Assembly (NCBI RefSeq): GCF_000017565.1
Contig: NC_009719.1
Span: forward strand, 1,302,001 to 1,366,000
Source of the DNA: Parvibaculum lavamentivorans DS-1
GTDB taxonomy: Bacteria > Pseudomonadota > Alphaproteobacteria > Parvibaculales > Parvibaculaceae
DNA: 64,000 bases
Direction of reading: 5' to 3'
A model generated the notes under the pieces. That model worked only from the letters and a program-made list of their open reading frames with translations. It ran no database searches and was not told the origin of the DNA. Below are positions 3,294-62,793 of this stretch, piece by piece (position 1 is the first letter of the stretch; each line of letters begins with the position of its first letter). The position numbers were made by a program, and so were the translations under genes.

Positions 3294-3300
3294 TCAAAAC

Positions 3301-8159: not shown

Positions 8160-8162
8160 GGA

Positions 8163-10925: not shown

Positions 10926-10942
10926 ATCAGCCCATCTTTTCT

Positions 10943-12832
10943 TTATTCGTCGCCAGACGATTTGCTGTCACCATTTTCGTCAGCGTATTTTTTCATGCCT
11001 TCCCGCAGGATTTCGAGGAAGGTGTGGTTCCTGCCTTCGGCATCAGCGATGATCGCATCGAAAGAGACCACGAAGGTCGGTGTCGGGATGACGCGGCCAT
11101 CAGGATGTGGCGTCTCGAATTCCTGATAATAAACCCTGCCCTTCGAGAAAAAGGGCGTCCACTTAAGTTGCCTTAAGCGAAAGGCCATTGTGTCGTTGAC
11201 GTTCATAATCGCGTAGTACCAAACGCGCTGAATGTTCGGACAATGCGCAACGAGCTTGCCGGCGCGGTCCAGAAGCTGATTTACAGCGTAGGAATTGTCT
11301 TTCTCGTCATCCGTCTTCTTTTTGATCTCAACTACAACGACATCGACCGGCGTCGTGTCGTTGGGGTCTGCCGAGAAGATCATCGCAATATCCGGCCGGC
11401 CTGTGTCTCCTACGATTTCGTCATCCAAGCGTATGGCATTGATGACGGCATCCATGCTCTTCTCGCTCAGAATGGTCCTGAAAACCATGAACTTGTCATC
11501 GAGCAACCAGGCATTGTTCTGGTAAACTTCCGACGGCATGGAGCTTTGCGAATACTCCTTGAAGCGGGGAACGATCAGATTGTGTATTTCGGATTCCGCG
11601 TTTCCGCCCGTCATCTCCTTCATTCGCCGAATGATTTTATCCCGATACAGGATATATTCGGTCAGCGTTCGGGAAGACATCTCCAATGATTTTTCATATG
11701 AGGCGTCGCTCAGTTTTTCGGACTGAAGTATTGCCTTCTGTTCTTTGAAAAATCGCTGTTGCGCGATCGACAGCGCATCGTCCCGGTCGATCAGGCCAAC
11801 GGTGTCGGCCTCAAAAAATCCGAGCAAATGCGGGAATTGCTCTTCAAATGTTTCTTTGGTTTTTTCATTCCGCTCGGTGATCTGCGGGATATTCTCCGCC
11901 AAAACCTTGCCCAGTTCGCGGCGCAGAACGCGAAAAAGATGAGCCTCGGGCGTTCCCTCGGGCAGAACAAGCCTTTGCCGGGAGCTGTCCGCATTCGAGT
12001 GGAAGAGTTCGGACTCGAAGAGAAAGACGCAGAGATAGCCCGGCGGAAACGACGAAGGGGGAATCAGGTTTGCCGGTATCGTTCGGCCGTCGATGCTGAA
12101 GGCGACGAGGGAACTTCCTTTCCCCGATACGGGGGCAATATGATAGTGCATGTCAATGGTCGAGATGGCATCAAGTGTATCATCCTGGATGGTAATCTTG
12201 GTCATTGCCGGCAAATCAGCCGGTGTTATTTCGGCTGCCTGAGGGAAGAACTCCTTTTGCGCGTTACTTTCGTTAGTCGTCAGATTTATAGAGATCTTGA
12301 ATGCCTTGCCTTCGCGCTTGCGCGCGTCAAGCGTTGGCAGAAATTGCTCAATCAGAAGCGGCTTAAGTGCATCCGGCTTCAGGTCGTCGTATGACTTAAC
12401 ACGCTCTTTGGCGAAGCCGCTGAAAATCAGCGAAGTTTTCGCTTCCTGTTGATCTGCAACGGCCTGCAGCGGCGCATTGCCGTCGAAGCCGTCCTTGAAG
12501 GTGAAGGTTCTCCGCCATTTTTCGCGAGCGCTATCAACATCCACACGAGCGAAATAGTTGAGGAAGACGAGGCGGCCGATGCCCTTGTGGAATTTATCTC
12601 TTGGCCGCAGCAGTTTCCGGAACCGCTCAAAATTCTCGTCGGTGAAGCCATCGCCGTTGTCCGAAACGGTAATTTTCAACGTGTCTGGCTTGTCGAAAGC
12701 TTGAACGTCGATATCGATCGACACGTCGGTCGCGCCCGCATCCAGCGCATTGGCCAGCGCTTCAAAATAGACGAGGGTCAACGACGGGTTGGGGAAAAAC
12801 AGCCTGATCGCCCCGGAGGTTTCAATATCCAT
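10943..12832 (-). CDS. GHKL-family ATPase with a C-terminal PD-(D/E)XK-like segment, BREX-embedded
   Basis: A 629-residue protein not part of the core BREX set. The N-terminus is a GHKL (Hsp90/MutL-like) ATP-binding fold: the N box FEALANALDAGA (Glu24, Asn28), the DNGDGF box at 58-63 and the glycine motif HKGIGRLVF at 82-90. The C-terminal part contains RPDIAMIF (Asp481) followed about 20 residues later by VVVVEIKKK (Glu502, Lys504), the spacing expected of a PD-(D/E)XK nuclease core, preceded by AWLLDDKFMVF. Nuclease activity is inference. The gene overlaps the preceding AlbA_2 gene by 11 bases, is followed 17 bases later by pglX, and is less GC-rich than its neighbours. Confidence 0.7.
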   Translation of the reverse strand: MDIETSGAIRLFFPNPSLTLVYFEALANALDAGATDVSIDIDVQAFDKPDTLKITVSDNGDGFTDENFERFRKLLRPRDKFHKGIGRLVFLNYFARVDVDSAREKWRRTFTFKDGFDGNAPLQAVADQQEAKTSLIFSGFAKERVKSYDDLKPDALKPLLIEQFLPTLDARKREGKAFKISINLTTNESNAQKEFFPQAAEITPADLPAMTKITIQDDTLDAISTIDMHYHIAPVSGKGSSLVAFSIDGRTIPANLIPPSSFPPGYLCVFLFESELFHSNADSSRQRLVLPEGTPEAHLFRVLRRELGKVLAENIPQITERNEKTKETFEEQFPHLLGFFEADTVGLIDRDDALSIAQQRFFKEQKAILQSEKLSDASYEKSLEMSSRTLTEYILYRDKIIRRMKEMTGGNAESEIHNLIVPRFKEYSQSSMPSEVYQNNAWLLDDKFMVFRTILSEKSMDAVINAIRLDDEIVGDTGRPDIAMIFSADPNDTTPVDVVVVEIKKKTDDEKDNSYAVNQLLDRAGKLVAHCPNIQRVWYYAIMNVNDTMAFRLRQLKWTPFFSKGRVYYQEFETPHPDGRVIPTPTFVVSFDAIIADAEGRNHTFLEILREGMKKYADENGDSKSSGDE

Positions 12833-14684
12833 TTTCTTCGTCCGGCTTGGCCGCGACCTGTTCGTGCAGCAGCTTGAGTTGGATGCCCGCTTCTGTGAGC
12901 ACGTAGCGTTGCCGCGACGAGCGCGGCTTGTCCGGGATAGTTGGGCGCAGTACGCCGCCGGCTAGGAGCGGCTCCATATGCGTGGCAACGAAGTGCGGTC
13001 GTTGGCGATAGCCGGCGTGAGCCATCAGTTCGGCCAGCGAGCGCGGGACATCGGCGTAGCCGACGATATGCCACTGCACCTCCGTCAACCGATCAAGTGA
13101 CCGATCAAGTCCGGGCTGTTCCTGTGCAACTTGTTCGGTGACTTGATCGGTAGCGCCTGCCACCACCGTTTCCGCGCCAGTCGGTTGATCCGTGGTATCT
13201 TCAGCCGTTTCGGCGGCGAAGCGGGTGCGCAAGTGAGGGACCAGCCGCCATGTGTGGGCCGCCTCGCCGAGCGGTTCCGTCAGCACTTGCACAGTCAGGC
13301 GCTGCGCCAGATCCAGCGCCTGCGCGCCAGTAAGACCAGTCAGCGCCTTGATGTCCGCTACATCGACCTGGCCGCTGCGCAGCAGGAAGGCAAACACCGC
13401 CGCCTCGTGCTCGGACAGGTGTGCGCCAAGGCTTGCCTGCGCAAGAAGCTGAGCTTCAGTAATGAGCTTTACCTTGCACAAGCGCAGGCGGAAGCTTTTT
13501 TCGGCCCTGCGGTTCTCGATCTCAGGCGGCAGGTAGCCCAGTTTGCGCCAGCCGTCGAAGATGGCGCGCACGCCGGTGCCGCCCTGATCGGACAGCCCGA
13601 TGCGGCGGAAGGCGCTGACGATGCTGGGGTTGCGAACCTCCTTATCGCCCGGATCGAGCAGTTGCTCGCGTGAGGCAAAGGCGTCGCCAGGATTGAAGAA
13701 CTCGGTCTGGTCACGGAAGAAGCGGATGACCGGCACACGGGTGGTGTCGCCGAAATCCTGATGGATCAGCAGATTGATCGCGGCTTCGCGGAAGGAGATG
13801 TAGTCGGGCGGGTCGTCGTCACGCCGCATGGTGGTCGCGTCGACGGCAAAGGGGCGCTCGCTGTGGCGGTAGTAGAACTCCACAATGGCCTGCCAAGCCT
13901 TGATAAGGTTGTCCTCCACCGAGAGGCGGTCGGCCCAGCGGACGGTGGAATCATATTCAGTGCTGGCATTGCGGTAGAGTTGTACGTCCGTGACCATGCG
14001 CGGCAGTACCTGCCGGACATATTCACCGCTGCCCAGCACCAGAATGGCGGCGCGGCTAGGGCGCAGCACGCCGCCTTGCTCGACCAGAAAGCCCCAGTTC
14101 CGCAGGAATGTGATGTCGTCAGCAGCGGTGTCTTTGCCGGGGTTGCTGGCGGCAAAGCGCGCACGATACCAACGCACAGAGGCTTCGTCGAAACACCGGC
14201 CAATATCCACATCGAGCGTTTCGGCGTCGTAGCGGATATTCGACGCATCACGAATGAAGCGCAGCAACTCATCGCCTGTGCAGGTGTCATCGCGCCCACC
14301 ACGACGAATGTGAGCTTTTTTCGGATTGCCGTCGAGATAGACCGGTTTCTGATGCCGCTCGGCTTCGGGGATATAAAAGGCCAGAACTGTGCCTTCGGCC
14401 AAGTCGTGAACCGTGCCGCCTATGGGCAAAAATACGCTGACTTTGTTTGAATCTCGAACTTGGCCCAGAAAGTCGTTTTGTATTTTATCAGCATCGGTCA
14501 CGCCGGTGACGGTAAATGTGCCGTTGGCCTGCTTGACGCCGAACACCAGGTGCCCGCCTTCCGTGTTGGCGAAGGCGCTGACAGTCGAAAGCGCGTCCTT
14601 GGGCACAGCCCAGGCTGCTTCCTTGAATTCGATGTCGTTCCATTCGATGGATTGGAGCGCGGCGACGAGGTCGTCTCTGGTCAT
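12822..14684 (-). CDS. AlbA_2 (Schlafen-like) / RecG-C-like DNA-binding protein, BREX-embedded
   Basis: A 620-residue protein starting 4 bases after brxC. Residues 1-140 form an AlbA_2 (Schlafen-type) domain: WNDIEFKEAAW, SAFANTEGGHLVFGV and AHIRRGGRD. Residues about 290-410 resemble the HATPase_c_4/RecG C-terminal domain: SFREAAINLLIHQDF, FFNPGD and SDQGGTGVRAIFDGW. Two winged-helix-like segments and an acidic linker follow. Proteins of this architecture are often DNA-binding regulators or accessory factors of defence operons. It is not in the core type 3 BREX list. Its overlap with the GHKL gene suggests the two act together. Confidence 0.75.
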   Translation of the reverse strand: MTRDDLVAALQSIEWNDIEFKEAAWAVPKDALSTVSAFANTEGGHLVFGVKQANGTFTVTGVTDADKIQNDFLGQVRDSNKVSVFLPIGGTVHDLAEGTVLAFYIPEAERHQKPVYLDGNPKKAHIRRGGRDDTCTGDELLRFIRDASNIRYDAETLDVDIGRCFDEASVRWYRARFAASNPGKDTAADDITFLRNWGFLVEQGGVLRPSRAAILVLGSGEYVRQVLPRMVTDVQLYRNASTEYDSTVRWADRLSVEDNLIKAWQAIVEFYYRHSERPFAVDATTMRRDDDPPDYISFREAAINLLIHQDFGDTTRVPVIRFFRDQTEFFNPGDAFASREQLLDPGDKEVRNPSIVSAFRRIGLSDQGGTGVRAIFDGWRKLGYLPPEIENRRAEKSFRLRLCKVKLITEAQLLAQASLGAHLSEHEAAVFAFLLRSGQVDVADIKALTGLTGAQALDLAQRLTVQVLTEPLGEAAHTWRLVPHLRTRFAAETAEDTTDQPTGAETVVAGATDQVTEQVAQEQPGLDRSLDRLTEVQWHIVGYADVPRSLAELMAHAGYRQRPHFVATHMEPLLAGGVLRPTIPDKPRSSRQRYVLTEAGIQLKLLHEQVAAKPDEENGY

Positions 14685-14688
14685 GGCG

Positions 14689-17600
14689 TCACTCGATCAC
14701 GAACCGGAGTTTGGTTGCGTCCTTGCCCTTGCCCCGCTCGCTGATGAGCGCGTCGAACCGCTTGCGCAGTTCATCCGGCGTGGCGGGCGAGCCTCCTTGC
14801 AGCAGGGCTTGACGCAGTTCGTCTGCTTTGACCGTGATCTTCTCCAGCCCGGACAGTGCTTCCTGCACGGCGTTGGCGAAATCGGTGGTGACAGGCTCCG
14901 GCAGCTTGCGCGCGGCGAGGAAGGCATCGATCAGAGCCTTCGATGCGGCCGGCAGCAGGCCCAGGCTGTCCTGCGTGAACGGGTCTTCCAGATTCTCCAG
15001 CAATGTCTGCTGCCAGTTGGCCTGCAACTGGTCCAGATCGTCGTCCAGCTTGTTCAGGCGACTGGCGGCAGGCAGCAGTTCCAGTTGTTCGGCGGATGGC
15101 CGGAACTGGCAGTGGGGGCATACCGGCGTTCTGAGCAGCGTCGGCTCGTCCAGCGCGGAGCAGCTTTTCAGGCCGTTGAGCGCGTCCTCGAAGCCGGTGA
15201 GCTGACTGGTGGGCATCAGCGAGACGCCTGCCAGCACGCGCAACGATAACAAGCGGTCGTCGCGGCGCAGTGCATTGCGTGTCTTCTCTTCGGCGACGCC
15301 GAGCCGCGCTTTGCTGTGGCTGGCGATATAGGCGGTGACGTAATCCTTCTTGAGCCCGGCGAGAGTCTGACGGCCTTCGCCGAGGATGGCGGCGGCGCGT
15401 TCCGCTGTGCGATCCTCCGCCAGCTTATCGAACAGGGCTTTGCGCGCGGCTTCGGCCTGCTTCACCCAGTCGTGGCCGGGCTGCAAGATCATCTCCGCCT
15501 GCGACAGATAGGATGCGGCGCCCCCCAATTCTCCGATCAGTTCCAACAAACGCTCGACGCCGGCGAGCACGTCCAGATTTTTCTTCTGGATGTCGATGTC
15601 TTCCTGCGTGGTGCGCAGGTTTTTGAGCTTGCCGACGGTGTTGTAGGGAGACAGGGATTCTGTAAATTTCTTGAGCGCATCCAGCCGCGCGTACCAATCC
15701 TTGGCTTCTTCCTCGCGCAGCAGGTTCTGGCCCCAGAAGGCGAGCTTGCCCTGCTGGAGATCGGAGCCCGCCCTGAGCACACGCGGCACCAGGGCGCTGA
15801 TCTTTTCCTGCAATGCGATGACCGGTTCGGTGTCGCCTTGGCTGGCCTTCTGGGCCAGGCCAGATGGCAGATCGAGCAACTCGAACAGCGCACGCAGCAC
15901 CGCGAGGTTGATTTCCTTGGGCGCCTCGATGTGCTTGAACTGCTTGAGTTCATCGAGCGAGCGTTCTGCCAGCAAGGAGAGCTTGCCGGAGTCGATCTTG
16001 TCGCCGGTGATCGCGAGCACGATGTCGCCGGAATAGGCCAGTGCGCCCAGCACAACGACCAGCAGATCGGGCTCAAGCCGGTGCTTGGCCGGGGAGAAAT
16101 ACTCCACATCGGTCGCACCGGCGACGAGTTCGTTGCGGTTGAGCACCTGCCCATGGCCCTTGGCCTTGAGACGGTTCAACACTTCCTGAGCGTAGCGGGA
16201 GCTCGCCGGGTCGATACGTTCGCCGTCGAGCATTTCCAAGGCATCGAGGACCGCGGTAGCGTCCTTGGTGCGCGTGCCGCCCGCCAGCGCGCGCAGCGTA
16301 CTGGCAATCAGGGATTTGCGGTTAGCCTCGGTGACGAGCACCGGGAACTTGGGATATTCGGGCGCGATGTCGGCGAAGTGCTGGGACAAAACCAGGCCCG
16401 AGACGATGTTCACAATGTCGCGGAAGTTGATCCTCTCCTCAGGCCCCAGGCGCGCGCGGTCGCGCAGTGAGACACCTTTGGCCCAGTCTTGCAGCGTCTT
16501 GGCCTTGCCCTGATAGGTGACTTCAAACGCGGTCAGCTGCTTTTCTTGCAGCCACTTGCTCATGGCGCGCAGGGCGTCCTGCGCCTTGGACTGATAGACC
16601 GCCTTCGCACCGCCACTGGCAGTGGAGCCCAGGTCGAGCGAGGCAGCGTATTGGGACAGATGGCGCCTGTAGCCCTCGTCAAGCGCTTTCAAGCGAAAGA
16701 ACACTTCATCCGGCTGCTGCGAGTAGGTGCGCTGTCCCTTGTCGAAGGGCTGAATGAAGTAGATGTAGAAATCACGCTCGGGCTGCGCGGTGGGACGGTC
16801 GTTTGGGCCTCCGAAGAACAAATAGCCCAGGCGTTCGACGCGGTGTTCCTGCCATTCGATCTGGTATTGCCAGATCTGGAAGCCGGGGTAGCGAAGATCG
16901 TCGCTGCACTCCATCAACGTCTTGACGGCGCTATAGTAGGCGCGGTCCAGAGCGTCGTCTGACAATGCTTCGGCGCGCTTATCGATCTGGGCGTCGTAGT
17001 CGACGTCTTTTTTGAGATCGAGGTAATACTGCTCGGTGTCGGCGGCCTTGGAGATGAACTGGCCGTTGACGGTCTTCAGCACCTCGCGCATCACGGTCTG
17101 AACCATCGACAGCAGGTTCTCGGCCGGTTCGCCGGGCATATCCCCGACACCAGGTTGGAACAGGCACAGGGAATCGCGAAGCTCTGCGGCGGTAGGACCA
17201 ATCGGGATGTGGATGTCGCCGCCGGTGGTCAGGCGATGCACAGCCAGGCCGTTGACGACGCGCAGCGCCATCGGTTTGTAGGTCGGCCGCGTGAATGCCT
17301 GCTGGATGCGAGATTCCAGCACTTCAGAGACGCGCAAGACCTCCTTGATGTTGGGATCGGCGCGCAGCACCTGGTTGCTCTTGACCGTATTCCAGAAGCT
17401 TTCGTAGGCGATGAGTTGTGGCCGATCAGTTGGTACATCCTGATCGAGAATGGCCTGCATTGCGGCTTCGATGGTCTTGAGTGCGCCACGTTTTTCGGTG
17501 AAGTGAATCTGCTCGAAGGTCTTGAGATAGTCTGGGTGGACCGGAAATAGCCGGACATACTCGTCCATACGCTCGTTCATCGATCCGTAGAACTTGGCGA

Positions 17601-18429
17601 ATGGCTTCAGATATTCGCGAATTTTATTCTGCTGGTCGGCAGACTTCTTGAGCAGACGCGCGGATACGACGAAGCTCACGTCCTGGCGGTCGATCAGGAT
17701 TTGCGTGAAGCGTTCATTGACGCGGCGTATGCTGTCGGCCACGTGCTGGAACCTTCCGCTATCGAAGATGGCTTCCTGCACACCCGCAACGAAGCGGAAT
17801 TTCAAATGCTTGGCGACTTCGCCGATCTGACGCAGGATGGCTAGGTCGAGCACCAGTTCGTGATCGCGACGCGATTGCAGATATTCGAGGAACTCGTCCA
17901 CTACGAGCAAAAGCCCCTGATCCGGGAACTTCTCGCCGAACGCAGCCATCATCTCCTCGAAGGAGTCCTTGTTGTTCAGTTCCTGATCAGCGCTTGGGAA
18001 CGTGAAATCGACGCCGAGTTTCTTGAGGAATCGTTCGATCTGCTGGGTGATGATCTGGCGCAACGGCATTTCAAGACCGCCGACCTCGATGCGCAGCACC
18101 TTGAAGCGCCCCGCGATGGACGCGACCGCATCCACCACTTTGGGGTGTCGGATCATCGGCGCATAGGCGGCGTCTTCGGCCACCAGCGATAGCACCGACA
18201 TCAGGTGCGATTTACCGGTGCCGTAGTTGCCGACGATGAGCACACCCTTGTGATCGACAGATTCGTCGAAGCCGAGCTGCGGCACCATGAGCTTGGCAAT
18301 GCGCTCGGCCATGTCATCGGAGATGACAAACGTCGAGACGAGCTTCTTGGCTTCGTTGGGACGGTCGGCGTCGAGCAGTTGAACGACCGACTCGATTTGC
18401 TCGAATTGAATAAGATCTTTGTACTTCAT
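14689..18429 (-). CDS. brxC: BREX ATPase BrxC (PglY, DUF6079-like)
   Basis: A 1246-residue AAA-type ATPase, the largest BREX subunit. Walker A is VGNYGTGKSHLM (GNYGTGKS at 67-74) and Walker B is LLLVVDEFLEYL (173-180). The rest is a long helical body with a CPHCQFRPS zinc-like element near the C-terminus. Length and position directly after brxF fit BrxC/PglY. It starts 21 bases downstream of the brxF stop. BrxC is essential for BREX defence and probably couples ATP use to the methylation/exclusion complex. Confidence 0.92.
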   Translation of the reverse strand: MKYKDLIQFEQIESVVQLLDADRPNEAKKLVSTFVISDDMAERIAKLMVPQLGFDESVDHKGVLIVGNYGTGKSHLMSVLSLVAEDAAYAPMIRHPKVVDAVASIAGRFKVLRIEVGGLEMPLRQIITQQIERFLKKLGVDFTFPSADQELNNKDSFEEMMAAFGEKFPDQGLLLVVDEFLEYLQSRRDHELVLDLAILRQIGEVAKHLKFRFVAGVQEAIFDSGRFQHVADSIRRVNERFTQILIDRQDVSFVVSARLLKKSADQQNKIREYLKPFAKFYGSMNERMDEYVRLFPVHPDYLKTFEQIHFTEKRGALKTIEAAMQAILDQDVPTDRPQLIAYESFWNTVKSNQVLRADPNIKEVLRVSEVLESRIQQAFTRPTYKPMALRVVNGLAVHRLTTGGDIHIPIGPTAAELRDSLCLFQPGVGDMPGEPAENLLSMVQTVMREVLKTVNGQFISKAADTEQYYLDLKKDVDYDAQIDKRAEALSDDALDRAYYSAVKTLMECSDDLRYPGFQIWQYQIEWQEHRVERLGYLFFGGPNDRPTAQPERDFYIYFIQPFDKGQRTYSQQPDEVFFRLKALDEGYRRHLSQYAASLDLGSTASGGAKAVYQSKAQDALRAMSKWLQEKQLTAFEVTYQGKAKTLQDWAKGVSLRDRARLGPEERINFRDIVNIVSGLVLSQHFADIAPEYPKFPVLVTEANRKSLIASTLRALAGGTRTKDATAVLDALEMLDGERIDPASSRYAQEVLNRLKAKGHGQVLNRNELVAGATDVEYFSPAKHRLEPDLLVVVLGALAYSGDIVLAITGDKIDSGKLSLLAERSLDELKQFKHIEAPKEINLAVLRALFELLDLPSGLAQKASQGDTEPVIALQEKISALVPRVLRAGSDLQQGKLAFWGQNLLREEEAKDWYARLDALKKFTESLSPYNTVGKLKNLRTTQEDIDIQKKNLDVLAGVERLLELIGELGGAASYLSQAEMILQPGHDWVKQAEAARKALFDKLAEDRTAERAAAILGEGRQTLAGLKKDYVTAYIASHSKARLGVAEEKTRNALRRDDRLLSLRVLAGVSLMPTSQLTGFEDALNGLKSCSALDEPTLLRTPVCPHCQFRPSAEQLELLPAASRLNKLDDDLDQLQANWQQTLLENLEDPFTQDSLGLLPAASKALIDAFLAARKLPEPVTTDFANAVQEALSGLEKITVKADELRQALLQGGSPATPDELRKRFDALISERGKGKDATKLRFVIE

Positions 18430-18450
18430 ATTCCTGACCTTCGAGTCCCC

Positions 18451-18948
18451 TTATTGACGTTGCGCCGTTTCAAAGACGACGACGCCGTCGCGGCTGTAGT
18501 CGCGGTGCTCGGGATGTCCCATGCCGGTGTAAATCAGCCGATCGTTGTGTATTTCACCTGGCCATACCGCGATGACCGGACGTGAGTGCGCCAGCAGTTT
18601 GATGACGTTGAGTGGATTGACCTTCAGACTAGGCTCAAAGAGCACTTCGAGGTTGTCGAGCAGCAGCGGAGCGTCACCGCTCACGCCATCAGTGATTTCG
18701 CGGAGCAGTTCGTTCGTCGAGAAACCGCGATCAGAGACGGGCGTGACCGCTAAGCGACGTCCGAGCGTCACGCCGACATTGAGAGGCTTGGCGTTCAACC
18801 GGCGCGCCAAAGCGCGCAGAAGGCGCGTTTTGCCGCTGCTGCCGACGAGCAGGATCAGCTTGCTCTGGAGATCGTTGATTTCCTCGATGAGCCGTTCAAG
18901 CGCAGGGAGCTTGGCCACCTCTGCCGATAGTGCGAACGCATGGGTCAT
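18451..18948 (-). CDS. brxF: BREX-3 P-loop protein BrxF
   Basis: A 165-residue P-loop NTPase. Walker A is LLVGSSGKTRLL (35-41) and Walker B is PLLLDNLEVLF (94-104). BrxF is the small ATPase that heads type 3 BREX operons, directly before brxC, as here. Its ATG overlaps the stop of the upstream HTH gene (ATGA), so the two are translated together. No membrane segment or extra domain is visible. Confidence 0.88.
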   Translation of the reverse strand: MTHAFALSAEVAKLPALERLIEEINDLQSKLILLVGSSGKTRLLRALARRLNAKPLNVGVTLGRRLAVTPVSDRGFSTNELLREITDGVSGDAPLLLDNLEVLFEPSLKVNPLNVIKLLAHSRPVIAVWPGEIHNDRLIYTGMGHPEHRDYSRDGVVVFETAQRQ

Positions 18949-53956: not shown

Positions 53957-54919
53957 TCACGCCGCCTGCCGTTCGTCGCCGGCCATGGTGTCGTCCGGGC
54001 CGAGATCGGCGTCGGGCAGGAAGCCGAGCAGCCAATCGGCCGCCTTGCTCGCCTGGGAGGCGGCGCGGACGATGGCGCGATTGTCCTCGCGCAGCACCTC
54101 CAGCCAGGCGCCGATATAGTCGGCATGGCGGACGGTCGGCGCGATGCCGAGAGACGCGCAGCAGAAGGCGGCGTTGATTTCGGCCACCAACTCCTCGAAG
54201 GCGTATTTCTTCGTGCCGAAACCGCCGGTCAGATCGCGGCCGAGCCGGGAGGCATGGCCGCTGGCGTGCCCGAGTTCGTGCAGGGCCGTGCGGTGCCAGT
54301 TGATCGGCTCGAAATAGGCTTGCGGCGGCGGCACCTGCACATAGTCGTGCGCCGACACATAGAAGGCGCGATCGCCGCCGATGCGGAAATCGATGCCCGT
54401 CGCTTCGATCAGAGCCTCGACGCGCGGCTCGATGAGGCCAGGCGGCGGCGGTGGAGCGATGGCGGCGATGTTGTCCGGCAGGCCGTCGCATTGCGCGGCG
54501 TTGAAGACGGTGAAGCGCTTGAGGAACGGAATCGCGGCGGCGTCTTCGCCGGTCTCGCGGGCGCGACGCTTCTCGTCCTCCGGCGTGAAGCGGTCGGCAT
54601 AGACGACGGTCGTGCCATGCTCACCCTTGCGGACATTGCTGCCCAGCGACAGCGCCTGGCGGAAGGTGAGCCAACTCTGGCCAGGGAAGCCGTGCTGGAT
54701 CACCGCCCCCCAGAGGATGAGCACATTGATGCCGGAATAGTGCCGTCCGGTCGCAGCGTTGCGGGGCATGGCGAGCGGCGCCTTGGCCGCGGCCGATCCC
54801 CATGGCTGGACCCAGGGAGCACGGCCCGCCTCAAGCTCGGCGATGATCTTGTCGGTGATGTCGTCATAGAGGCTCGCCCGGCCTGAGCCGGCGCGGGCGC
54901 TGTGGTTTTTTCTGAACAT
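53957..54919 (-). CDS. ArdC-like antirestriction protein (ssDNA-binding plus zincin)
   Basis: A 320-residue protein: N-terminal ssDNA-binding ArdC domain (DDITDKIIAELEAGRAPWVQ, then RHYSGINVLILWGA) and a C-terminal zincin-like metallopeptidase with HELGH at 214-218. ArdC-type proteins protect incoming single-stranded plasmid DNA from restriction in the recipient. The start at 54919 follows a conserved leader. All key residues present. Confidence 0.9.
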   Translation of the reverse strand: MFRKNHSARAGSGRASLYDDITDKIIAELEAGRAPWVQPWGSAAAKAPLAMPRNAATGRHYSGINVLILWGAVIQHGFPGQSWLTFRQALSLGSNVRKGEHGTTVVYADRFTPEDEKRRARETGEDAAAIPFLKRFTVFNAAQCDGLPDNIAAIAPPPPPGLIEPRVEALIEATGIDFRIGGDRAFYVSAHDYVQVPPPQAYFEPINWHRTALHELGHASGHASRLGRDLTGGFGTKKYAFEELVAEINAAFCCASLGIAPTVRHADYIGAWLEVLREDNRAIVRAASQASKAADWLLGFLPDADLGPDDTMAGDERQAA

Positions 54920-55001
54920 CGCGGTTCTCCGCGACGGGCGCCGGAGACCTCTTCTCCAGCCCTCGACCCGTCACGGGAAACCCGTCCGCACTCTCACTCT
55001 A
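54920..55001 (-). promoter_or_regulatory. Conserved leader, copy 3 (before the ArdC gene)
   Basis: In the mRNA sense: CTAGAGTGAGAGTGCGG, GTGACGGGTCGAGG, GAGGTCTCC, then GCCCGTCGCGGAG about 8 bases before the ATG. It closely matches copy 2, and its 5' block also matches copy 1. Confidence 0.65.
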
Positions 55002-55119
55002 GGGGGGCGTTGCGGGGATCTCCCCGCAGAAGGGGTCGGGCGAGACCCTTTGGCTCGACCGCAGGGGAAGGCTTTCCCCCTTGTCCCAGCTTTCCGTCCC
55101 GGATGTGTTTCCTTGAAAA

Positions 55120-55149
55120 CTGTCAGAAAACTGCGTATGTTCCTGACAG
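55120..55149. promoter_or_regulatory. Inverted repeat upstream of the AbiE pair
   Basis: CTGTCAG (55120-55126) and CTGACAG (55143-55149) form 7-base arms separated by 16 bases, ending 10 bases before the AbiEi-like start. AbiEi antitoxins repress their operon through inverted repeats, so this is a candidate operator. Confidence 0.55.
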
Positions 55150-55159
55150 GAGAAAGACG

Positions 55160-55753
55160 ATGACACGGCTGACCGAACAGATTCTGTCGCATATGACGGG
55201 TTTGCCCGAGGGCGCTTCTGTGTCCGCTAAGGGGCTGCTCCATCTCGGCAATCGCGCCGCAGTGGACCAGGCCTTGTCGCGTCTGGCCGAGCGCGAACAA
55301 CTCATCCGGGCTGGGCGCGGTGTCTATCTCCGCCCCGTCGCCAGTCGATTCGGGACGCGCGCGCCGTCGGTGGAACAGGCTGTGGAAGCCCTTGCCAGCC
55401 AGCGTGGCGAGACCATCGTCTCGAACGGTGCGGCGGCCGCAAACGCCCTTGGCCTGACGACGCAGGTGCCGGTTCGCTCGGTCTATCTGACCTCCGGGCG
55501 CAGCCGGAAGATGAATCTCGGCAAGCAGGTCGTGGAATTGCGCCATGCCCCGCGCTGGCAACTGGCTCTGGCCAACCGGCCGGCGGGAGAGGCCGTCCGG
55601 GCCTTGGCTTGGCTCGGCCCGGAGAAAGCCGAAACTGCGCTCAGGACATTGAAGCGAAAGCTGCCGCCCGGCGCCTTTGGCGAATTGGTGGCGGCCGCGC
55701 CGCAGCTTCCGACATGGTTGGCGCAGAGTGTCGGGAAGGCGGCCTATGGCTGA
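55160..55753 (+). CDS. AbiEi-like antitoxin (DUF6088)
   Basis: A 197-residue protein: an N-terminal winged helix (VSAKGLLHLGNRAAVDQALS, then QLIRAGRGVYLRP) and a C-terminal region typical of AbiEi/DUF6088 (TIVSNGAAAANALGLTTQVP, then VYLTSGRSRKMNLG). The ATG at 55160 has AGGAGA 8-13 bases upstream. It is the antitoxin and autoregulator of a type IV toxin-antitoxin pair and overlaps the toxin gene by 8 bases. Confidence 0.88.
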   Translation: MTRLTEQILSHMTGLPEGASVSAKGLLHLGNRAAVDQALSRLAEREQLIRAGRGVYLRPVASRFGTRAPSVEQAVEALASQRGETIVSNGAAAANALGLTTQVPVRSVYLTSGRSRKMNLGKQVVELRHAPRWQLALANRPAGEAVRALAWLGPEKAETALRTLKRKLPPGAFGELVAAAPQLPTWLAQSVGKAAYG

Positions 55754-56762
55754 AACCTTCCTGCTCCTCTCGGCTCAGGATCGCCGCGACGCCCTTGGCG
55801 TCGCGGCGGATCGTTCGGGGCGGCCCGCGCATCTGCTCGAAAAGGACGTCTGGGTGGTGTGGGCGTTGAGCACGCTCTACACGGCGCCGCTTGGTGAGCA
55901 TCTGGTGTTCAAGGGCGGCACATCGCTGTCGAAAGCCTATCAGGTCATCCATCGGTTTTCGGAGGATGTGGATATGACCTACGACATTCGGGCCATCGCG
56001 CCCGACCTGGTCGGGGACAATGGCGAGGGCCTGCCGAAAACGCGAAGCGAGGAAAAGCGCTGGTCCAGCGAGGTTCGTCGCCGGCTACCGGAATGGGTTG
56101 GCGCTGTCGTGCAGCCGGTGATCTCCGACGCCCTGGCAACGGAAGGTTTGGCTGCGGCGATCCGCGTCGAAGGTGATCGGCTCTTTATCGACTACGAACC
56201 GACCGCAACCGGATCGGGCTATGTCGCCCCAAGTGTCATGCTGGAGTTCGGTGCGCGGTCGACGGGCGAGCCGGCCAGCTTGCGCGATGTTGCCTGCGAT
56301 GCGTCCGGCCTGATCGATGGCCTGATATTTCCGACAGCACGTCCGCGCGTCATGCACGCCGAGCGGACGTTCTGGGAGAAGGCGACCGCCATCCATGTCT
56401 TCTGCCACCAGGACCGGCTGCGTGGGGACCGCTTCGCCCGGCACTGGCATGATGTCGCCCGGCTCGATGAAGCCGGTCTTGCGGACGCTGCCTTCGCGGA
56501 TCGCGAACTGGCGAACGCGGTCGTTCGTCATAAGTCGATGTTCTTTGCGGAGAAAGCCGCTGATCGCTCGCCGATCGACTATGCAATGGCCGTCAACGGC
56601 GGCTTGCAGCTTGTGCCGGTCGGCGATGGCGCGAAAGCGCTGAAGGACGACTATATCCGCATGGTCGAGGATGGGCTGCTCTTCGATGACGCAGAACCGT
56701 TCGAGGCGCTCATGGCGCGATGCGCCGAGATGGCCGCGCGAGCCAACAACGCGGCCAGTTAA
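55746..56762 (+). CDS. AbiEii-like nucleotidyltransferase toxin
   Basis: A 338-residue nucleotidyltransferase of the AbiEii/AbiGii family. The active-site motifs are intact: VFKGGTSLSKAYQVI (55-63) and RFSEDVDMTY (Asp74 and Asp76), with PRVMHAERTFWEKATAIHVF following. AbiE toxins arrest growth by modifying tRNA and give abortive infection. It is coupled to the antitoxin. Confidence 0.9.
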   Translation: MAETFLLLSAQDRRDALGVAADRSGRPAHLLEKDVWVVWALSTLYTAPLGEHLVFKGGTSLSKAYQVIHRFSEDVDMTYDIRAIAPDLVGDNGEGLPKTRSEEKRWSSEVRRRLPEWVGAVVQPVISDALATEGLAAAIRVEGDRLFIDYEPTATGSGYVAPSVMLEFGARSTGEPASLRDVACDASGLIDGLIFPTARPRVMHAERTFWEKATAIHVFCHQDRLRGDRFARHWHDVARLDEAGLADAAFADRELANAVVRHKSMFFAEKAADRSPIDYAMAVNGGLQLVPVGDGAKALKDDYIRMVEDGLLFDDAEPFEALMARCAEMAARANNAAS

Positions 56763-56845
56763 GAAACGACGATGAGGGGGCGTGTAGTGACGGTAATGGG
56801 TATGTCTGACATTCCGGCGAGCGTTGTAGTTCGGAGTGCAGCGAA

Positions 56846-59620
56846 ATGATCGGAGATCACTCCGACAGCTTCAATTTCCTTCAGCGGTTCTGGCCAGATC
56901 TCCATGATCTCGGGAGAAAGGCGGAACAGGCTGGACCGCATGAGCCGGACCTCGTGGCCATCCGGCTGCGTGGGCTTACCGAGACGATGGTCGTCAAACT
57001 GTTTGGGCAACTGGGACTTCAGTACGACCCGGCGCATTCGCATTTCGACAGGTTGGTCCTGTTGGAGAATGCAGACCTGCTCGACGCCCGTCTCCTTTCC
57101 AAATTTCACGCTATCCGGAAGGTCGGCAACAATGCCGCACACAACGGGAAGGTTACGCCGGCACAAGCTGAAGCTCTTTTGGAAGATGCTTGGTCTCTTT
57201 CGTGCTGGTTCTGCCGCTTCATGCGTCCCGACATCGAATGGCTGACTCCAGCGAGGCAGAACGCCAATCCCCTCTCGGTTCCATCCATGGTGGAAACGCA
57301 GGACGTTTCTGCCGAGCGGCAGCCGACGGTCCCGGGTAAGTCATCGAACATACTCAAGTTTCCCGAGGAGCGCGTCCGGCGCATACGGGAGCAGGTCTCC
57401 CGCGCGATGGCGGAAGTCGATCCGAGGGTGCGCCAACTTCGGACCAGCATCACACTTCACGAGGCCTTTACGGAAAGTCTGTCGAGCGACCAAGCCGCCT
57501 GCCTCGACGCGCTTTCCACATTCCTCTCCAGTCCGACGCAGCATGTATTCCTGCTCAAGGGCTATGCGGGCACCGGCAAGACCTTCCTCGCCAAGGGCAT
57601 CACCGAATATCTTTCGGCACAGGGTCGCGCTTTCCGCCTCGCAGCACCGACCGGGCGGGCGGCGAAGATTATCTCGGAGAAGACCGGGCGCGACGCGCGG
57701 ACGGTGCATAGCCAAATCTACAACTTCAGCGACCTGAAGGAATATACGAAGGGGGATCAGGAGGTTGGGTCGGAGACGTTCAAGTTCTATGCGGAGATCG
57801 CGGCCAACCAAGATCAGGCCAATACGGTCTATATCGTGGACGAGGCGTCGCTTCTTTCGGACGTCTATTCGGAGAGCGAGTTCTTCCGATCGGGAACCGG
57901 ATACCTGTTGCACGACCTGATTAGCTATGTCGGATTCAAGCATGGCGAGACCGACCGGAAGATTATCCTCGTAGGCGATCCCGCTCAGCTTCCCCCGGTG
58001 GGGATGTCCGTCTCCCCAGCGCTTGATACGGAGTACCTCCACAAGCACCTCGGGTTGGATGCGGCCGAATACGAGTTGAAGGAAGTACTGCGGCAGAAGG
58101 CGGATAGCGGGATTATCCGTAACGTCATGCCGCTTCGCGATAGCCTTTCAAAGGGCACATTTGGTAGCCTCAGCTTCGAATTCGACGAAGATGTCCTGCG
58201 TCTCCGCGCCGACGAGGTTCTCCCGTTATATATGGCGGCACGCTCTACCGGCGAAGCGAACATTCCGATTGTCATTACGCGGTCTAACAGCGAAGCGGCC
58301 AGTTACAACCGGGCGATCCGGGATGCACTTTTCCCCGGACGTGACTTCGTGGCGGCCGGTGATCGGCTGATCGTCACCGCCAACGCCGTTGTGAACGGCA
58401 GCTTCCTGGCTAACGGTGAGTTTGTCGATGTCGTCGATGCGGAAACCATGGTGGAGCGGCGGTCCGTCAATCTCCGATACCGTAACGAGGAGACCGGGGC
58501 AGTCGACGTCATCGAGGTGTCGTTAGTGTTCCGCGACATCCAGATAACCGTTTCGTCGCCAGATGGCGCCGAGACCGTTCTGACCGCGAAAATCCTCGAC
58601 GATCATCTTCACGATAGCGGGGCCGGGCTCGACGCTGCGCAGCAGCGCGCGCTCTATGTGGACTTCCTCAAGCGTCACCCTGATTTGAAGCGCGGCCACG
58701 ACCGAGAACGCCTCAGCCAGATCATACGCCAGGACCCGTACTTTAACGCGCTCCGCGTAAAGTTCGGCTACGCGGTGACTTGCCACAAGGCGCAGGGTGG
58801 CGAATGGGGGCATGTGTTCGTGAATTGCCCGTCTGGCCAGAATCCGAGATCGGCCGAGTATTTCCGTTGGCTCTATACGGCCATGACCCGCTCAAGCGGG
58901 AAGCTGTATATGATCGACCCGCCCGAAGTCAGGTTGAAGGTCGCCGGACCTGACTGGTGGTCGCCTTCGGAGGTATCGACGACATCGACGGATGGGCAGC
59001 TCTCGGCAGCTGCGCAGGCGGGAGGCACCGCCTCAATCATATCGCCCCAGGAGGCATTCCGCCTCGGTGTTCTGGCGCGCGTGCGGGACCTTCTCGGGGA
59101 GACGGGCATCGAGATCGACGATGTCGCGCATCACCAGTACCAGGAAGCCTTCTACCTGCGTCGTGACCTCGACACCGCCCGCGCTAACATCAGTTACAAT
59201 GGCAAGTTCAAGGTTACAGCGGTGGCTGTTCCTCCCGCAGGCGCTTTCAGCGAGCAGCTAGGCGAGCTTCTTCGGCCGTTGGTCGGTCAGTCCATTGGCT
59301 CGGCACTGCCAGTCGCCGGCACGGGTGGCTCGTCGGGCCTGCAATCGCCAAGCCGCCCTTTCCTTGCACAGTTCCACGACCGCCTGTTGCCTCTTCTCAG
59401 GGAACGCCAAATCCACATTGTGGGATTGAAGGAACAGGCGTGGAGCCAGCGCTACACCTTCTCGCGTGGCGGTGATGCTGCCGTCGTCGATGTCTTCTAC
59501 GACGGACGAGATCGGTTCACGAAATGCATGCCGATCAACGTCGGGGGAAGGCAGGGCGTCCCAGCGGGTACGTTGTTGCCCGAGGTGCTTGAGATACTCA
59601 CCGCGCAGGTCATCCCGTGA
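56846..59620 (+). CDS. DUF4145-fused RecD-like superfamily 1 helicase
   Basis: A 924-residue protein. Residues 1-130 form a DUF4145-like domain (LLSKFHAIRKVGNNAAH). Residues 210-660 are a superfamily 1B (RecD/UvrD-like) helicase: LLKGYAGTGKTFLA (239-246), YIVDEASLLSD (331-338), ILVGDPAQLPPVG (377-385) and the C-terminal motif VTCHKAQGGEWGHV (645-656). The last 260 residues are unassigned. It is 84 bases after the AbiE toxin and is coupled to the next gene by a GTGA overlap. DUF4145 fusions are frequent in defence proteins, so a role in anti-phage or anti-plasmid defence is inferred. Confidence 0.8.
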   Translation: MIGDHSDSFNFLQRFWPDLHDLGRKAEQAGPHEPDLVAIRLRGLTETMVVKLFGQLGLQYDPAHSHFDRLVLLENADLLDARLLSKFHAIRKVGNNAAHNGKVTPAQAEALLEDAWSLSCWFCRFMRPDIEWLTPARQNANPLSVPSMVETQDVSAERQPTVPGKSSNILKFPEERVRRIREQVSRAMAEVDPRVRQLRTSITLHEAFTESLSSDQAACLDALSTFLSSPTQHVFLLKGYAGTGKTFLAKGITEYLSAQGRAFRLAAPTGRAAKIISEKTGRDARTVHSQIYNFSDLKEYTKGDQEVGSETFKFYAEIAANQDQANTVYIVDEASLLSDVYSESEFFRSGTGYLLHDLISYVGFKHGETDRKIILVGDPAQLPPVGMSVSPALDTEYLHKHLGLDAAEYELKEVLRQKADSGIIRNVMPLRDSLSKGTFGSLSFEFDEDVLRLRADEVLPLYMAARSTGEANIPIVITRSNSEAASYNRAIRDALFPGRDFVAAGDRLIVTANAVVNGSFLANGEFVDVVDAETMVERRSVNLRYRNEETGAVDVIEVSLVFRDIQITVSSPDGAETVLTAKILDDHLHDSGAGLDAAQQRALYVDFLKRHPDLKRGHDRERLSQIIRQDPYFNALRVKFGYAVTCHKAQGGEWGHVFVNCPSGQNPRSAEYFRWLYTAMTRSSGKLYMIDPPEVRLKVAGPDWWSPSEVSTTSTDGQLSAAAQAGGTASIISPQEAFRLGVLARVRDLLGETGIEIDDVAHHQYQEAFYLRRDLDTARANISYNGKFKVTAVAVPPAGAFSEQLGELLRPLVGQSIGSALPVAGTGGSSGLQSPSRPFLAQFHDRLLPLLRERQIHIVGLKEQAWSQRYTFSRGGDAAVVDVFYDGRDRFTKCMPINVGGRQGVPAGTLLPEVLEILTAQVIP

Positions 59621-61533
59621 AGCCGGGGCAGCAGGTCACGGCCTTGCGCAAGGGCGGCCAACTCGATGAAGCGTTCAAACTCGCCACGGAACTGGTTGCG
59701 GCGCCGGAGGCGAACGAATGGGAGGTCGGCGCCTACGGCTGGTGTCTGATCGATCTCGTGAAGCGGCATGCCGCCGACCGGGATCAGGCATCGCTGCATG
59801 GCTATCTGCGCCTGCTGACGAAGTTTGAGGTCCCTAGTGGAAATGAGCTTCTCGCCGAACACCGAGAGCGGGCGCTGGCATTGGTCGACGATGATCGTCG
59901 TGCCGTCATGGCAGCCCGAAAGCTCGGCAAGGATGGCCAGCACGACATGGCCGTTGGCGCGTTTGCGGCACTCATGGCGAAAGGCGGTCTGACCAAGGAC
60001 GACAAGACTGCTTTCGGCTGGGAGCTCTACCGGGCCACCCAGGCGATCTTCCGAGCGGCTGGGGGGCAGGATTTGGCGCCGAGCGCCATCGATACCGTCA
60101 AGCGGCACCTCAACACCTATCTCAAGCTCGGCATCTCGGAGTCCGGTCTATTACATAGCTGCATGATGCAGCAGGCGGTCCGGTTGTCCCATGGCGACCA
60201 TCTCCGCCTCGCCGCATTCGCACGCTTGTGGGGTCTGGATTCGTTCCGGCGCGAGGACTTCGAGGAGTCCCGACTCGACGACGGCAAGACCTTCCCCCCG
60301 CTTGCGGAAACGGTGCTGCAACGCGCATCCAAGGAAGCTGTGAAGGGCGGATCTCCAGCGGAGATGAACTATATCCTGCCCTACCTTGAGCGCGGGCTGG
60401 AGCTGTTCCCTGAGAACGTCTGGCTGAAGTTGAACATGGTAAAGTTGCTGCGCGGCCTCGAACGGCTAGATGAGGCTCGACTGCTCGCGACTGAGTTCGC
60501 CCGCAGCAAGGCAGGCGAATATTGGACCTGGGAGTTGATCGGCGACCTCGAGGTGGAGCCGGTTATGCGCCTTTCGTGCTATGCGAAGGCGCTGACTTGC
60601 TCGGAGGACGATACGTTCGTCAGCAAGCTGCGTCTCAAGTTCGCGGCCCTGGTCGCCGCCGATCATCCCGGTGAGGCGAGAGCCGAAGTGGAACGGGTGA
60701 TCGAACATAGACGTCGCGAGGGCACCCGCATTCCCATCGACGCCCAGCGGATGGCGGAAAGCGCCTGGTTCCTTGCCGCGGCACCATCTACCCCGGGCCG
60801 TTCGTTCTACGATCGCTTCAAGTCGCGCGCCGAGGAGTTGCTCTTCGCCCATCTCCCTTGGACCGATGCATTAGTCGGCGACGAATTCGTGATCGAGGGG
60901 CAGGAAGGGCAGAAGGATCGGACACGCCGGCGGATATTCGTTAAGGCCAGCCCGCTGCCTTTAGAAATCAGCGTCTCTGCGGGGCACCCGGACGTGCGGG
61001 GCTGCCGGTCGGGCGCTCCGATCAGGGTGCAGATGGAGGTGTCGACCGCCGAACCATGGAAGGCGATGGTGCATCGGATTCAGCCACGGAACGGCGCCAG
61101 CGATGACGTTGTGCCGGAACTATGCGGCGTGATCGATCACATCAACCGGGCCAAGTCGCTCCTCCATTTTGTGGTGGCTAAGGGAATCGACGGCACGTTT
61201 CCATTGGCCGACTTTACCGGTTCAGCAACGATAGGACAGGCTGTCGCGGTTCGGGCGACCCGCTATCATAGCCGGAAAGGTGCGCGCACTCGGACGCTGT
61301 CGGTTTCCTCTACCACCCGATCGCCTGGAACGGATGTGCTGAAGCCTTTCAACGACGATGTCGAAGTCCGTAATGGCCTCGGCTTCACTTCCGCTGGCAT
61401 CTTTATTCCGCCGGATATCGTTGCAGAATCCAGGGTCGTCGATGGCGATCGGGTGGAAGGCCTAGCCGTTATCAATTTCGACAAGAAGCGAAGCACATGG
61501 GGCTGGAAAGCTATCAGCGCGAAAAACGACTGA
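59617..61533 (+). CDS. TPR-like protein with C-terminal OB/cold-shock-like domain
   Basis: A 638-residue protein starting with GTG inside the helicase stop (GTGA), so the two are translated together. The first 440 residues are helical repeats of TPR type (VTALRKGGQLDEAFKLATEL; LERLDEARLLATEFARSKAG). The end contains small beta-rich units, the last resembling a cold-shock/OB fold (GFTSAGIFIPPDIVAES, then RVVDGDRVEGLAVINFDKKR). An RNA- or ssDNA-binding partner of the helicase is the likely role. No named family recognised. Confidence 0.72.
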   Translation: MKPGQQVTALRKGGQLDEAFKLATELVAAPEANEWEVGAYGWCLIDLVKRHAADRDQASLHGYLRLLTKFEVPSGNELLAEHRERALALVDDDRRAVMAARKLGKDGQHDMAVGAFAALMAKGGLTKDDKTAFGWELYRATQAIFRAAGGQDLAPSAIDTVKRHLNTYLKLGISESGLLHSCMMQQAVRLSHGDHLRLAAFARLWGLDSFRREDFEESRLDDGKTFPPLAETVLQRASKEAVKGGSPAEMNYILPYLERGLELFPENVWLKLNMVKLLRGLERLDEARLLATEFARSKAGEYWTWELIGDLEVEPVMRLSCYAKALTCSEDDTFVSKLRLKFAALVAADHPGEARAEVERVIEHRRREGTRIPIDAQRMAESAWFLAAAPSTPGRSFYDRFKSRAEELLFAHLPWTDALVGDEFVIEGQEGQKDRTRRRIFVKASPLPLEISVSAGHPDVRGCRSGAPIRVQMEVSTAEPWKAMVHRIQPRNGASDDVVPELCGVIDHINRAKSLLHFVVAKGIDGTFPLADFTGSATIGQAVAVRATRYHSRKGARTRTLSVSSTTRSPGTDVLKPFNDDVEVRNGLGFTSAGIFIPPDIVAESRVVDGDRVEGLAVINFDKKRSTWGWKAISAKND

Positions 61534-61695: not shown

Positions 61696-61800
61696 GCATC
61701 CCGGAAAAATCCAATAATTTCAAAAGCCAGCCATTTTGCCGGGATAGCTGACGGTATATCGCCGTAAGAAATATTTTTAATGACGATATTTCAAGGCGTT

Positions 61801-62793
61801 ATGCTGCCAATCAATAATCGAGTGGGCATCGGCAACGCACTGGTCGATGTGATCGCGAATGCGGACGATAAATTCCTGATTGCAAACGGCATCGAAAAAG
61901 GCGGAATGACGCTGATCGACGCGGCACGCGCCGATGAGCTCTATGCCAGGATGGCGAGCTCGATCGAGATGTCGGGCGGTTCCTGCGCCAATACCATCGC
62001 AGGGCTTGCCTCGCTCGGCGGTAAAGGTGCATTTTTCGGCAAGGTGAAGAACGATCAGCTTGGCGAAGTCTTCGTCCACGACATCAAGTCGCTCGGCGTC
62101 GTCTTCCCCGCCTCGCAGGCGACGAGCGGCGTTCCGACCGGGCGCTGCCTCATCATCGTAACGCCGGACGCGCAGCGAAGCATGAGCACGTTTCTCGGCG
62201 CGGCGCAGAAGCTGCAGCCGGATGACATCGATGCGGACACGATCCGCGCCGCAGCCGTCACCTATATGGAAGGCTATCTCTGGGATGAGCCCGGCGCGAA
62301 GGACGCTTTCCTGAAGGCCGCGAAGATTGCCCATGACGCGGGACGCCTGGTCTCGCTGACGCTCTCCGACAGTTTCTGCGTCGGCCGCTACCGGGACGAA
62401 TTCCGGCGGCTGGCGAAGGATGAAGTGGATATTCTTTTCGCCAATGAAGCCGAAATCCTTTCGCTCTACGAAACCGATGTCTTCGACGAAGCGCTTCAGA
62501 AAGTGCGCGCCGATTGCAAGTTCGCCGCGCTGACACGTTCGGAAGCGGGCGCCGTCATCGTCGCCGATGGCGAAGTGCATGTCGTGGACGCGGAGAAAGT
62601 TTCAAAAGTCGTCGATACGACGGGCGCGGGCGATCTCTTCGCCGCCGGTTTCCTCTATGGCCTCACGCGCGGGAAAAGCCCTGTCGAATGCGGCCGTCTC
62701 GGCGCCATGGCGGCGGCGGAAATCATTTCGCATTACGGCCCGCGTCCGCAGGTCTCGCTCGCGAAGCTTGCGAAGGAAAAGGGCCTCGCCTGA
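61801..62793 (+). CDS. Adenosine kinase (PfkB family)
   Basis: A 330-residue PfkB-family kinase. Signature motifs: VGIGNALVDVIA, the SGGSCANTIAGLASLGG substrate loop and VVDTTGAGDLFAAGF (Asp278 as catalytic base). Alphaproteobacterial proteins of this type are annotated as adenosine kinase; related sugar kinases are the alternative. The ATG at 61801 is preferred because AAGG lies 7 bases upstream; an ATG at 61780 is also in frame. It is chromosomal and ends back to back with coaA. Confidence 0.88.
   Translation: MLPINNRVGIGNALVDVIANADDKFLIANGIEKGGMTLIDAARADELYARMASSIEMSGGSCANTIAGLASLGGKGAFFGKVKNDQLGEVFVHDIKSLGVVFPASQATSGVPTGRCLIIVTPDAQRSMSTFLGAAQKLQPDDIDADTIRAAAVTYMEGYLWDEPGAKDAFLKAAKIAHDAGRLVSLTLSDSFCVGRYRDEFRRLAKDEVDILFANEAEILSLYETDVFDEALQKVRADCKFAALTRSEAGAVIVADGEVHVVDAEKVSKVVDTTGAGDLFAAGFLYGLTRGKSPVECGRLGAMAAAEIISHYGPRPQVSLAKLAKEKGLA

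Follow-up and report, generated by a model that had tools for sequence, protein, structure and literature searches.

What is the two-gene unit at the right end of an integrative conjugative element in Parvibaculum lavamentivorans DS-1, and what does it do there? The window analysed here, a stretch of 64,000 nucleotides of contig NC_009719.1, contains an element of 61.3 kb (positions 558–61826) bounded by the 10-mer ATCGAGTGGG at 558–567 and 61817–61826, which occurs nowhere else in the window on either strand. Just before its right end, on the plus strand, lie a helicase gene (56846–59620) and a partner gene (59617–61533) that stops 283 bp ahead of the right-end repeat. A first-pass annotation, made from the sequence alone, had recognized this position and proposed the two genes as an undescribed defence module. 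Our analysis indicates that the pair is probably a conflict system of the TOTE class with a defence role, corresponding to the PADLOC candidate PDC-M16, a judgement that covers identity and defence role and not each step of the mechanism considered below. The pair is already catalogued and its class already named; it is not newly discovered.

The identification rests on family models for both proteins. In PADLOC-DB v2.0.0 (2023), model PDLC04472 (PDC-M16A) matches the helicase with 1215 bits over residues 6–922, and model PDLC04488 (PDC-M16B) matches the partner with 866 bits over residues 1–637. Because these models match both proteins over nearly their full length and Pfam names their domains after TOTE, the description of the module as undescribed fails. 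We take PDC to stand for 'phage defence candidate'; the names reportedly come from a 2024 preprint by Payne et al. on defences embedded in immune systems. The first-pass annotation had itself said that a match to a described system would overturn its proposal: such a match exists as a catalogued candidate and not as a tested mechanism, since a literature search of main texts returned no published test of PDC-M16, and the term itself is absent from the four papers in which it was looked for. As for the class, TOTE is given as TPR, OB, TBP and Effector in PMC12458937, which credits Aravind, Iyer et al. 2022.

The helicase gene starts with ATG and encodes 924 residues in which a DUF4145 domain precedes a superfamily 1B (SF1B) RecD/Dda-like helicase core and two TBP-TOTE domains. 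The core, about residues 203–690 (57452–58915), carries the superfamily 1 motifs GYAGTGKT at 239, APTGRAAKI at 267, VDEAS at 331, GDPAQLPPVG at 377, TCHKAQGGEW at 645, and YTAMTR at 677; the first is the Walker A motif (residues 239–246, 57560–57583) with Lys245, and the translation confirms the superfamily 1 motifs and the Lys245 of the first-pass annotation. Pfam also matches AAA_30 and UvrD_C_2, and among solved structures the core lies nearest to Dda, RecD2, and one deep-sea helicase. Membership in RecD2 itself was rejected, the protein scoring 103 bits against the NCBIfam equivalog TIGR01448, far below its cut-off of 500.

The C-terminal 260 residues, previously called unassigned, are covered by two stretches of PF22721 (Pfam, E 6.7e-38), whose title is 'TATA-binding-like protein domain of the TOTE conflict systems'. 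The first spans about residues 734–812 (59045–59281; PF22721 at 737–812) and the second about residues 838–922 (59357–59611). An AlphaFold2 model, built on a shallow alignment of 9 sequences and usable at both ends of the protein, predicts the same helix–four strands–helix unit for each, with a predicted local distance difference test score (pLDDT) mostly of 68–84 in the first and block values of 43–84 in the second. The best fold match of residues 738–924 is RnlA (6y2q, Z 7.5, 10.0 Å over 149 residues), with a second RnlA structure close by (4i8o, Z 7.4, 3.1 Å over 77); since all these matches fall below Z 8, the caution line of the fold-comparison tool, we treat them as a lead. A TBP structure is named nowhere among the 50 fold matches listed, which does not test its absence. 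Compared with solved structures by sequence, the C-terminal domains and the DUF4145 domain gave nothing convincing (best E 0.17 for PrgE and 0.031 for a capsid protein), and a weak match to a 'DUF4145 domain-containing protein' appeared at E 0.6.

The N-terminal domain (residues 13–130, 56882–57235) bears out the DUF4145 assignment made earlier: Pfam places the family at residues 26–113 with 28.8 bits, above the cut-off of 23.1. In the same 9-sequence model (pLDDT about 64–84 here), it matches HEPN proteins (2hsb, Z 13.3, 2.6 Å over 115), and HEPN is in the title of four of the first seven fold-match rows. On this model the DUF4145 domain has a HEPN fold, and PMC3710099 likewise places DUF4145 in the HEPN superfamily. 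The signature RKVGNNAAH lies at residues 91–99; R91, N95, A97, and H99 are invariant, and the pattern R...N.A.H recurs in all 20 HEPN-bearing copies among the 24 loci that we examined. A smaller, HEPN-less form also exists, recognized by Pfam at loci L073 and L088 and by the start of the alignment at L074 and L075; L073 and L088 retain two TBP-TOTE domains, DUF7017, and S1CSD-2 (Pfam).

The partner open reading frame (ORF), which starts with GTG and encodes 638 residues, is joined to the helicase ORF by a GTGA stop/start overlap (59617–59620); the coordinates, frames, and overlap given in the first-pass annotation are all exact. Its model (mean pLDDT 72.9) predicts a TPR superhelix, helical over residues 1 to about 410 and matching TPR proteins at Z 15.1 (6.7 Å over 260). 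Pfam assigns DUF7017 to residues 268–405 (60418–60831, E 1.2e-39), S1CSD-TOTE-1 (PF22708) to residues 497–559 (61105–61293, E 1.7e-22), and S1CSD-TOTE-2 (PF22707) to residues 576–634 (61342–61518, E 6.1e-20), the last two titled 'S1/CSD-like domain 1/2 of the TOTE conflict systems'; TPR_19 is found under its cut-off (E 3.3e-4). The helical repeats and OB-like units proposed for the partner thus correspond to the DUF7017/TPR model and the two S1/CSD domains. Structure prediction of the two C-termini, the check suggested at the time, gave the two units described above for the helicase and left S1CSD-TOTE-1 of the partner unresolved, most of its residues having pLDDT below 50. A Pfam scan of both proteins found no known nuclease domain.

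The two genes are kept together across relatives. Relatives with 34–51% identity in the helicase and 18–50% in the partner retain both genes and the architecture. Five diverse pairs, from Leisingera, Pseudomonas veronii, Acinetobacter, Sulfurospirillum, and Escherichia, all read DUF4145–helicase–two TBP-TOTE domains plus DUF7017–S1CSD-2 in Pfam; S1CSD-1 is matched in four of the five, the Escherichia partner (474 residues) being without it. From these comparisons, the first OB domain (S1CSD-1) and HEPN look like additions to a core. The partner gene adjoins the helicase gene at 24/24 loci, and at 21 of them the two frames overlap by NTGA, which supplies an in-frame start codon (ATG, GTG, or TTG; the exceptions are L068, L072, and L088); these loci were chosen non-randomly from hits of both genes, and the near-identical L012–L014, L058–L060, and L053–L054 are counted apart. 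At L072 (9134–11796, genome G744), the helicase frame is broken by a frame change and the partner is open. Across 13 loci, the pairwise identities of helicase and partner correlate (r 0.94, Mantel p 0.0001). Against relatives 96–98% identical, the helicase has a ratio of nonsynonymous to synonymous substitution (dN/dS) of 0.15 (Asaia) and 0.14 (Nitrospirillum), and the partner has 0.29 and 0.30, respectively. The conservation of the pair is far beyond chance. Records of Brevundimonas, Asaia, and Nitrospirillum hold near-identical pairs, with 96–99% identity in the partner and shared element DNA up to 61826.

The distribution is patchy. Helicase relatives at E 1e-60 or better occur in 6/385 genomes of the class and 5/398 of the phylum, own genome included, and the partner in 1/145 other relatives, by a weak match. 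A search with DUF7017 alone is unspecific (64/398 genomes at E 1e-3, 18 above the cut-off, and four, own included, at E <1e-38). On plasmids, the helicase has matches at 1e-5 in 242 records, covering at least 80% of its length in 52, and the partner in 16, an undercount because the Escherichia-type partner shares 18% identity. The Escherichia pair is matched by DNA in 53 of 5426 E. coli genomes, with coverage of at least 80% of the pair in 42, and some copies are cut by insertion sequences. A single-sequence search found no partner relatives in viral contigs, and one phage record has a weak match over 40% of the partner. The viral contigs L084–L087 carry full-length relatives with 73–90% DNA identity to the Leisingera and Frigidibacter plasmid loci, almost only across the pair.

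The position of the pair in the element is one argument for a defence role. The element carries a tyrosine integrase, a Trb-type type IV secretion system, TraG, RepA, ParB, a strawberry-notch-type helicase, and ArdC, the backbone gene ahead of AbiE. As the first-pass annotation had noted, the genes preceding the pair are, by Pfam and PADLOC, the antitoxin AbiEi (54902–55753, plus strand; the family match begins about residue 89 of the ORF) and the toxin AbiEii (55677–56762, plus strand). ArdC was found at E 1e-90 in 13/385 genomes of the class, own included, and from each we took one ArdC-anchored stretch of 7–12 kb; L188 stops at a contig end after 7 kb, and the stretch from our own genome surrounds a third ArdC copy, outside both copies of the element. 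The pair is carried by none of the 13 stretches and AbiE by three. AbiE and the pair were therefore rejected as a single system, AbiE occurring without the pair in those three; AbiE is also not annotated beside the pair at eight plasmid loci, whose gene tables are incomplete. One sister element, L181, has 85% DNA identity to window 53999–56767, through the end of AbiEii, and then diverges. There it carries two overlapping genes (L181:3839–7269) matching solved-structure chains of SIR2 (E 3.5e-37) and HerA/DUF87 (E 4.1e-47), both including 8yhx. Another, L187, has past ArdC (3241–5939) two genes, one ThsA-like (E 7e-89) and the other coding for TIR (E 1e-28). These are two of the four slots compared with solved structures (L181, L182, L184, and L187, out of 13) that hold cargo of a known defence type; the L184 slot holds an AddA/UvrD-type helicase. 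Because the slot holds other defence genes in sister elements, the pair is cargo that can be exchanged, in a position that known defence systems also occupy. L182 has at 3766–7317 a weakly SMC/Rad50-like ATPase (818 residues) beside a 352-residue gene, trypsin-like by eye.

The neighbours of the pair in other genomes are another. Up to four ORFs per side were taken at 16 loci, the AbiE genes of the window included, and compared with as many ORFs from eight other stretches of pair-carrying genomes (a 1860-residue ORF of L078 was dropped by hand from the 125). At E 1e-10, the 124 neighbour ORFs match 187 PADLOC models and the 124 control ORFs match 8, figures that count models, many redundant for one gene, and not genes. 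Because of this redundancy, single cases matter more. In Acinetobacter the Mokosh genes MkoA and MkoB flank the pair on one side, and DUF262 genes are annotated on its other side; in genome G377, Druantia DruE lies upstream and PDC-M72A downstream; in Shewanella, genes annotated as type I restriction S and R enclose the pair together with HrgA; and at three of the four loci viewed on E. coli chromosomes, HsdR, DUF262, or McrC is annotated within 12 kb. The earlier claim of a two-gene module in a slot used by defence cargo holds: known systems share the slot, and defence genes lie nearby in several unrelated genomes.

A number of observations weigh against this interpretation. The element is laden with defence genes, BREX at its other end among them; this suits a defence role, but it also makes proximity to such genes in itself weaker evidence within the element, and the AbiE genes of the window had prompted the finding. 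The control ORFs are chromosomal, whereas eight of the 16 case loci are plasmid or viral-contig records. A known system can be named gene by gene at only four of the 16 loci (the window, L056, L058, and L071), and at none of the other 12. Near the pair on the fourth E. coli chromosome viewed, the annotation shows no defence gene, 11 of the 53 matching E. coli genomes hold less than 80% of it in one place, and the Escherichia and Klebsiella loci viewed keep stbA and have insertion sequences close by. The HEPN-less pairs L073–L075, from one alphaproteobacterial genus, lie in a non-defence context; near L073 there is an acetyl-CoA synthetase by name, and three such genes are counted among the 124 neighbours. 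The motor part of the helicase model is poor (mean pLDDT 49). The HEPN active-site motif is Rx4-6H in PMC3710099, and the DUF4145 domain has Rx7H instead, with R91 eight residues ahead of H99; relative to Rx4H, the conserved arginine is shifted by three residues towards the N-terminus, roughly one turn of a helix, and could lie on the same face. Finally, the literature searched contains no phage or plasmid test of the pair.

Weighing both sides, we regard a defence or anti-mobile-element role as quite likely, and it is very likely that helicase and partner form a physical complex. How might such a TOTE-class complex work? Both proteins would be made in step through the stop/start overlap, and the TPR superhelix would serve as a scaffold holding the helicase. 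The tandem TBP-like and S1/CSD domains may hold an unusual form of nucleic acid from the invader, such as a single strand, an RNA:DNA hybrid, or a processed end, along which the SF1B motor would translocate with ATP, stripping or remodelling the nucleic acid or bringing HEPN to RNA. Because the motor, the TBP pair, and the partner persist in lineages that lack HEPN, the sensing and motor complex appears to be the core, and HEPN an added effector or RNA-binding arm; the whole would most likely sense the nucleic acid of invaders at the expense of ATP, with HEPN as an optional part. Ribonuclease action of the HEPN domain is possible rather than probable. A bolder variant sees in the helicase protein an RnlA-like toxin taken apart, with an SF1B motor standing between the HEPN toxin and the TBP pair to give a motor-gated abortive ribonuclease. 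The motor and the TPR-OB partner would then license the toxin only during movement along a replication or transcription intermediate of the invader, either single-stranded or an RNA:DNA hybrid, the catalytic arginine being displaced by about one helical turn relative to known HEPN enzymes. We regard this variant as rather unlikely.

Among the explanations that compete with a TOTE-class defence system, one holds that the pair serves the element itself, in conjugative transfer, excision, or stable inheritance. The pair does sit amid transfer genes on Leisingera and Frigidibacter conjugative plasmids, beside stbA at the loci viewed in both Escherichia and Klebsiella, and on the present integrative conjugative element. 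Against this, the 13 sister stretches with the ArdC gene of this backbone are without it, at least some holding other defence cargo, and the pair also occurs between type I restriction genes and in chromosomal islands. We consider service to the element improbable.

A second explanation makes the pair a toxin–antitoxin system in the style of RnlA–RnlB, with HEPN as the toxin and the partner as its neutralizer. The HEPN fold, the tight overlap of two genes, and the R...N.A.H pattern in every HEPN-bearing copy would suit it, as would the resemblance of both ends of the helicase protein to RnlA, the HEPN end matching 6y2p (Z 7.3) in addition to the C-terminal matches. These RnlA matches are all under Z 8, however, and the partner bears nucleic-acid-binding domains. 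Moreover, the HEPN-less copies L073, L074, L075, and L088 keep the partner, which is therefore not simply an antidote to HEPN. Membership in the RnlA family was rejected as well, the partner not being RnlB, and RnlA is not known to carry a helicase. A toxin–antitoxin pair of this kind is likewise improbable. Least probable is a RecD2- or Dda-like helicase of DNA repair or replication restart with no role in conflict, since the likeness of the core to Dda, RecD2, and the deep-sea helicase is outweighed by patchy occurrence in class, phylum, and E. coli, mobile contexts, and a RecD2 score far short of the equivalog cut-off.

The element that carries this TOTE-class pair has a second copy in the genome, in opposite orientation (G000:C1:3753739–3815003): window 565–61829 aligns with it, and the only mismatch, at 61827, falls beyond the right repeat. 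This confirms the right end named in the first-pass annotation. The ends of that copy have no shared 10-mer, and its left end retains only GGG of ATCGAGTGGG. The flanks are exchanged: in the window, a guaA-like 3' end lies to the left of the element, and to its right follows an adenosine-kinase-like gene truncated close to its start; at the second copy, the 5' start of this kinase gene is on the left and a guaA-type tail on the right (names by eye). Two accounts would produce this arrangement, an inversion of the intervening chromosome by recombination between the copies or a switch in the assembly. A PfkB-family kinase frame (Pfam) at 61780–62793 begins inside the element, which therefore supplies the kinase's present start region. 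At the left end, on the minus strand, lies a BREX system (2571–18948) with BrxF, BrxC, PglXI, BrxHI, PglZ, and BrxA. Between its pglX and brxC are two overlapping genes (10943–14684) encoding a 629-residue protein with HATPase_c and a 620-residue protein with SLFN_AlbA_2, HATPase_c_4, and a Fic-like C-terminal domain; no PADLOC model matched either at 1e-10, and they are possibly an embedded second system.

The locus matters in several respects. PDC-M16 and TOTE helicase systems are catalogued, with no published test in the main texts searched, and here the two genes form a well-delimited unit for which nature provides a replacement control, SIR2–HerA in the same slot behind the same AbiE genes in a sister element. 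The unusual HEPN motif and the natural HEPN-less relatives make the roles of motor, sensor, and HEPN separable. The related pair in E. coli, present over at least 80% of its length in 42/5426 genomes, extends the question past the alphaproteobacteria.

How does the pair compare with known systems? Type I restriction proteins with DUF4145 resemble the helicase in its N-terminal region (PRK11448 at residues 6–211, PADLOC REase_I at 9–135) and differ in being fused to SF2 helicase and nuclease modules; a fusion of DUF4145 to 'UvrD Helicase (endoV alpha subunit)' was listed in 2013, in PMC3710099. RecD2 and Dda share the motor core and its motifs but lack the added HEPN and TBP domains. RnlA, or RNase LS, has HEPN and, in some members, a TBP-like domain, according to PMC3710099, and is paired with RnlB, in place of which our locus has a DUF7017/TPR protein with S1/CSD domains. 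TALON, according to PMC12458937, shares the TPR-CSD and TBP proteins and differs in relying on a YprA-family helicase plus a NERD nuclease, where our pair has a RecD/Dda-like helicase and, by Pfam, no known nuclease domain. With TOTE systems, the pair has TPR, OB (S1/CSD), and TBP in common, OB and TBP by TOTE-named Pfam models; it differs at the effector position, where the SF1B helicase with intact motifs and a HEPN fold stands as a candidate effector. The closest likeness is to PADLOC PDC-M16, in which both adjacent proteins match over nearly their full length and no architectural difference was found.

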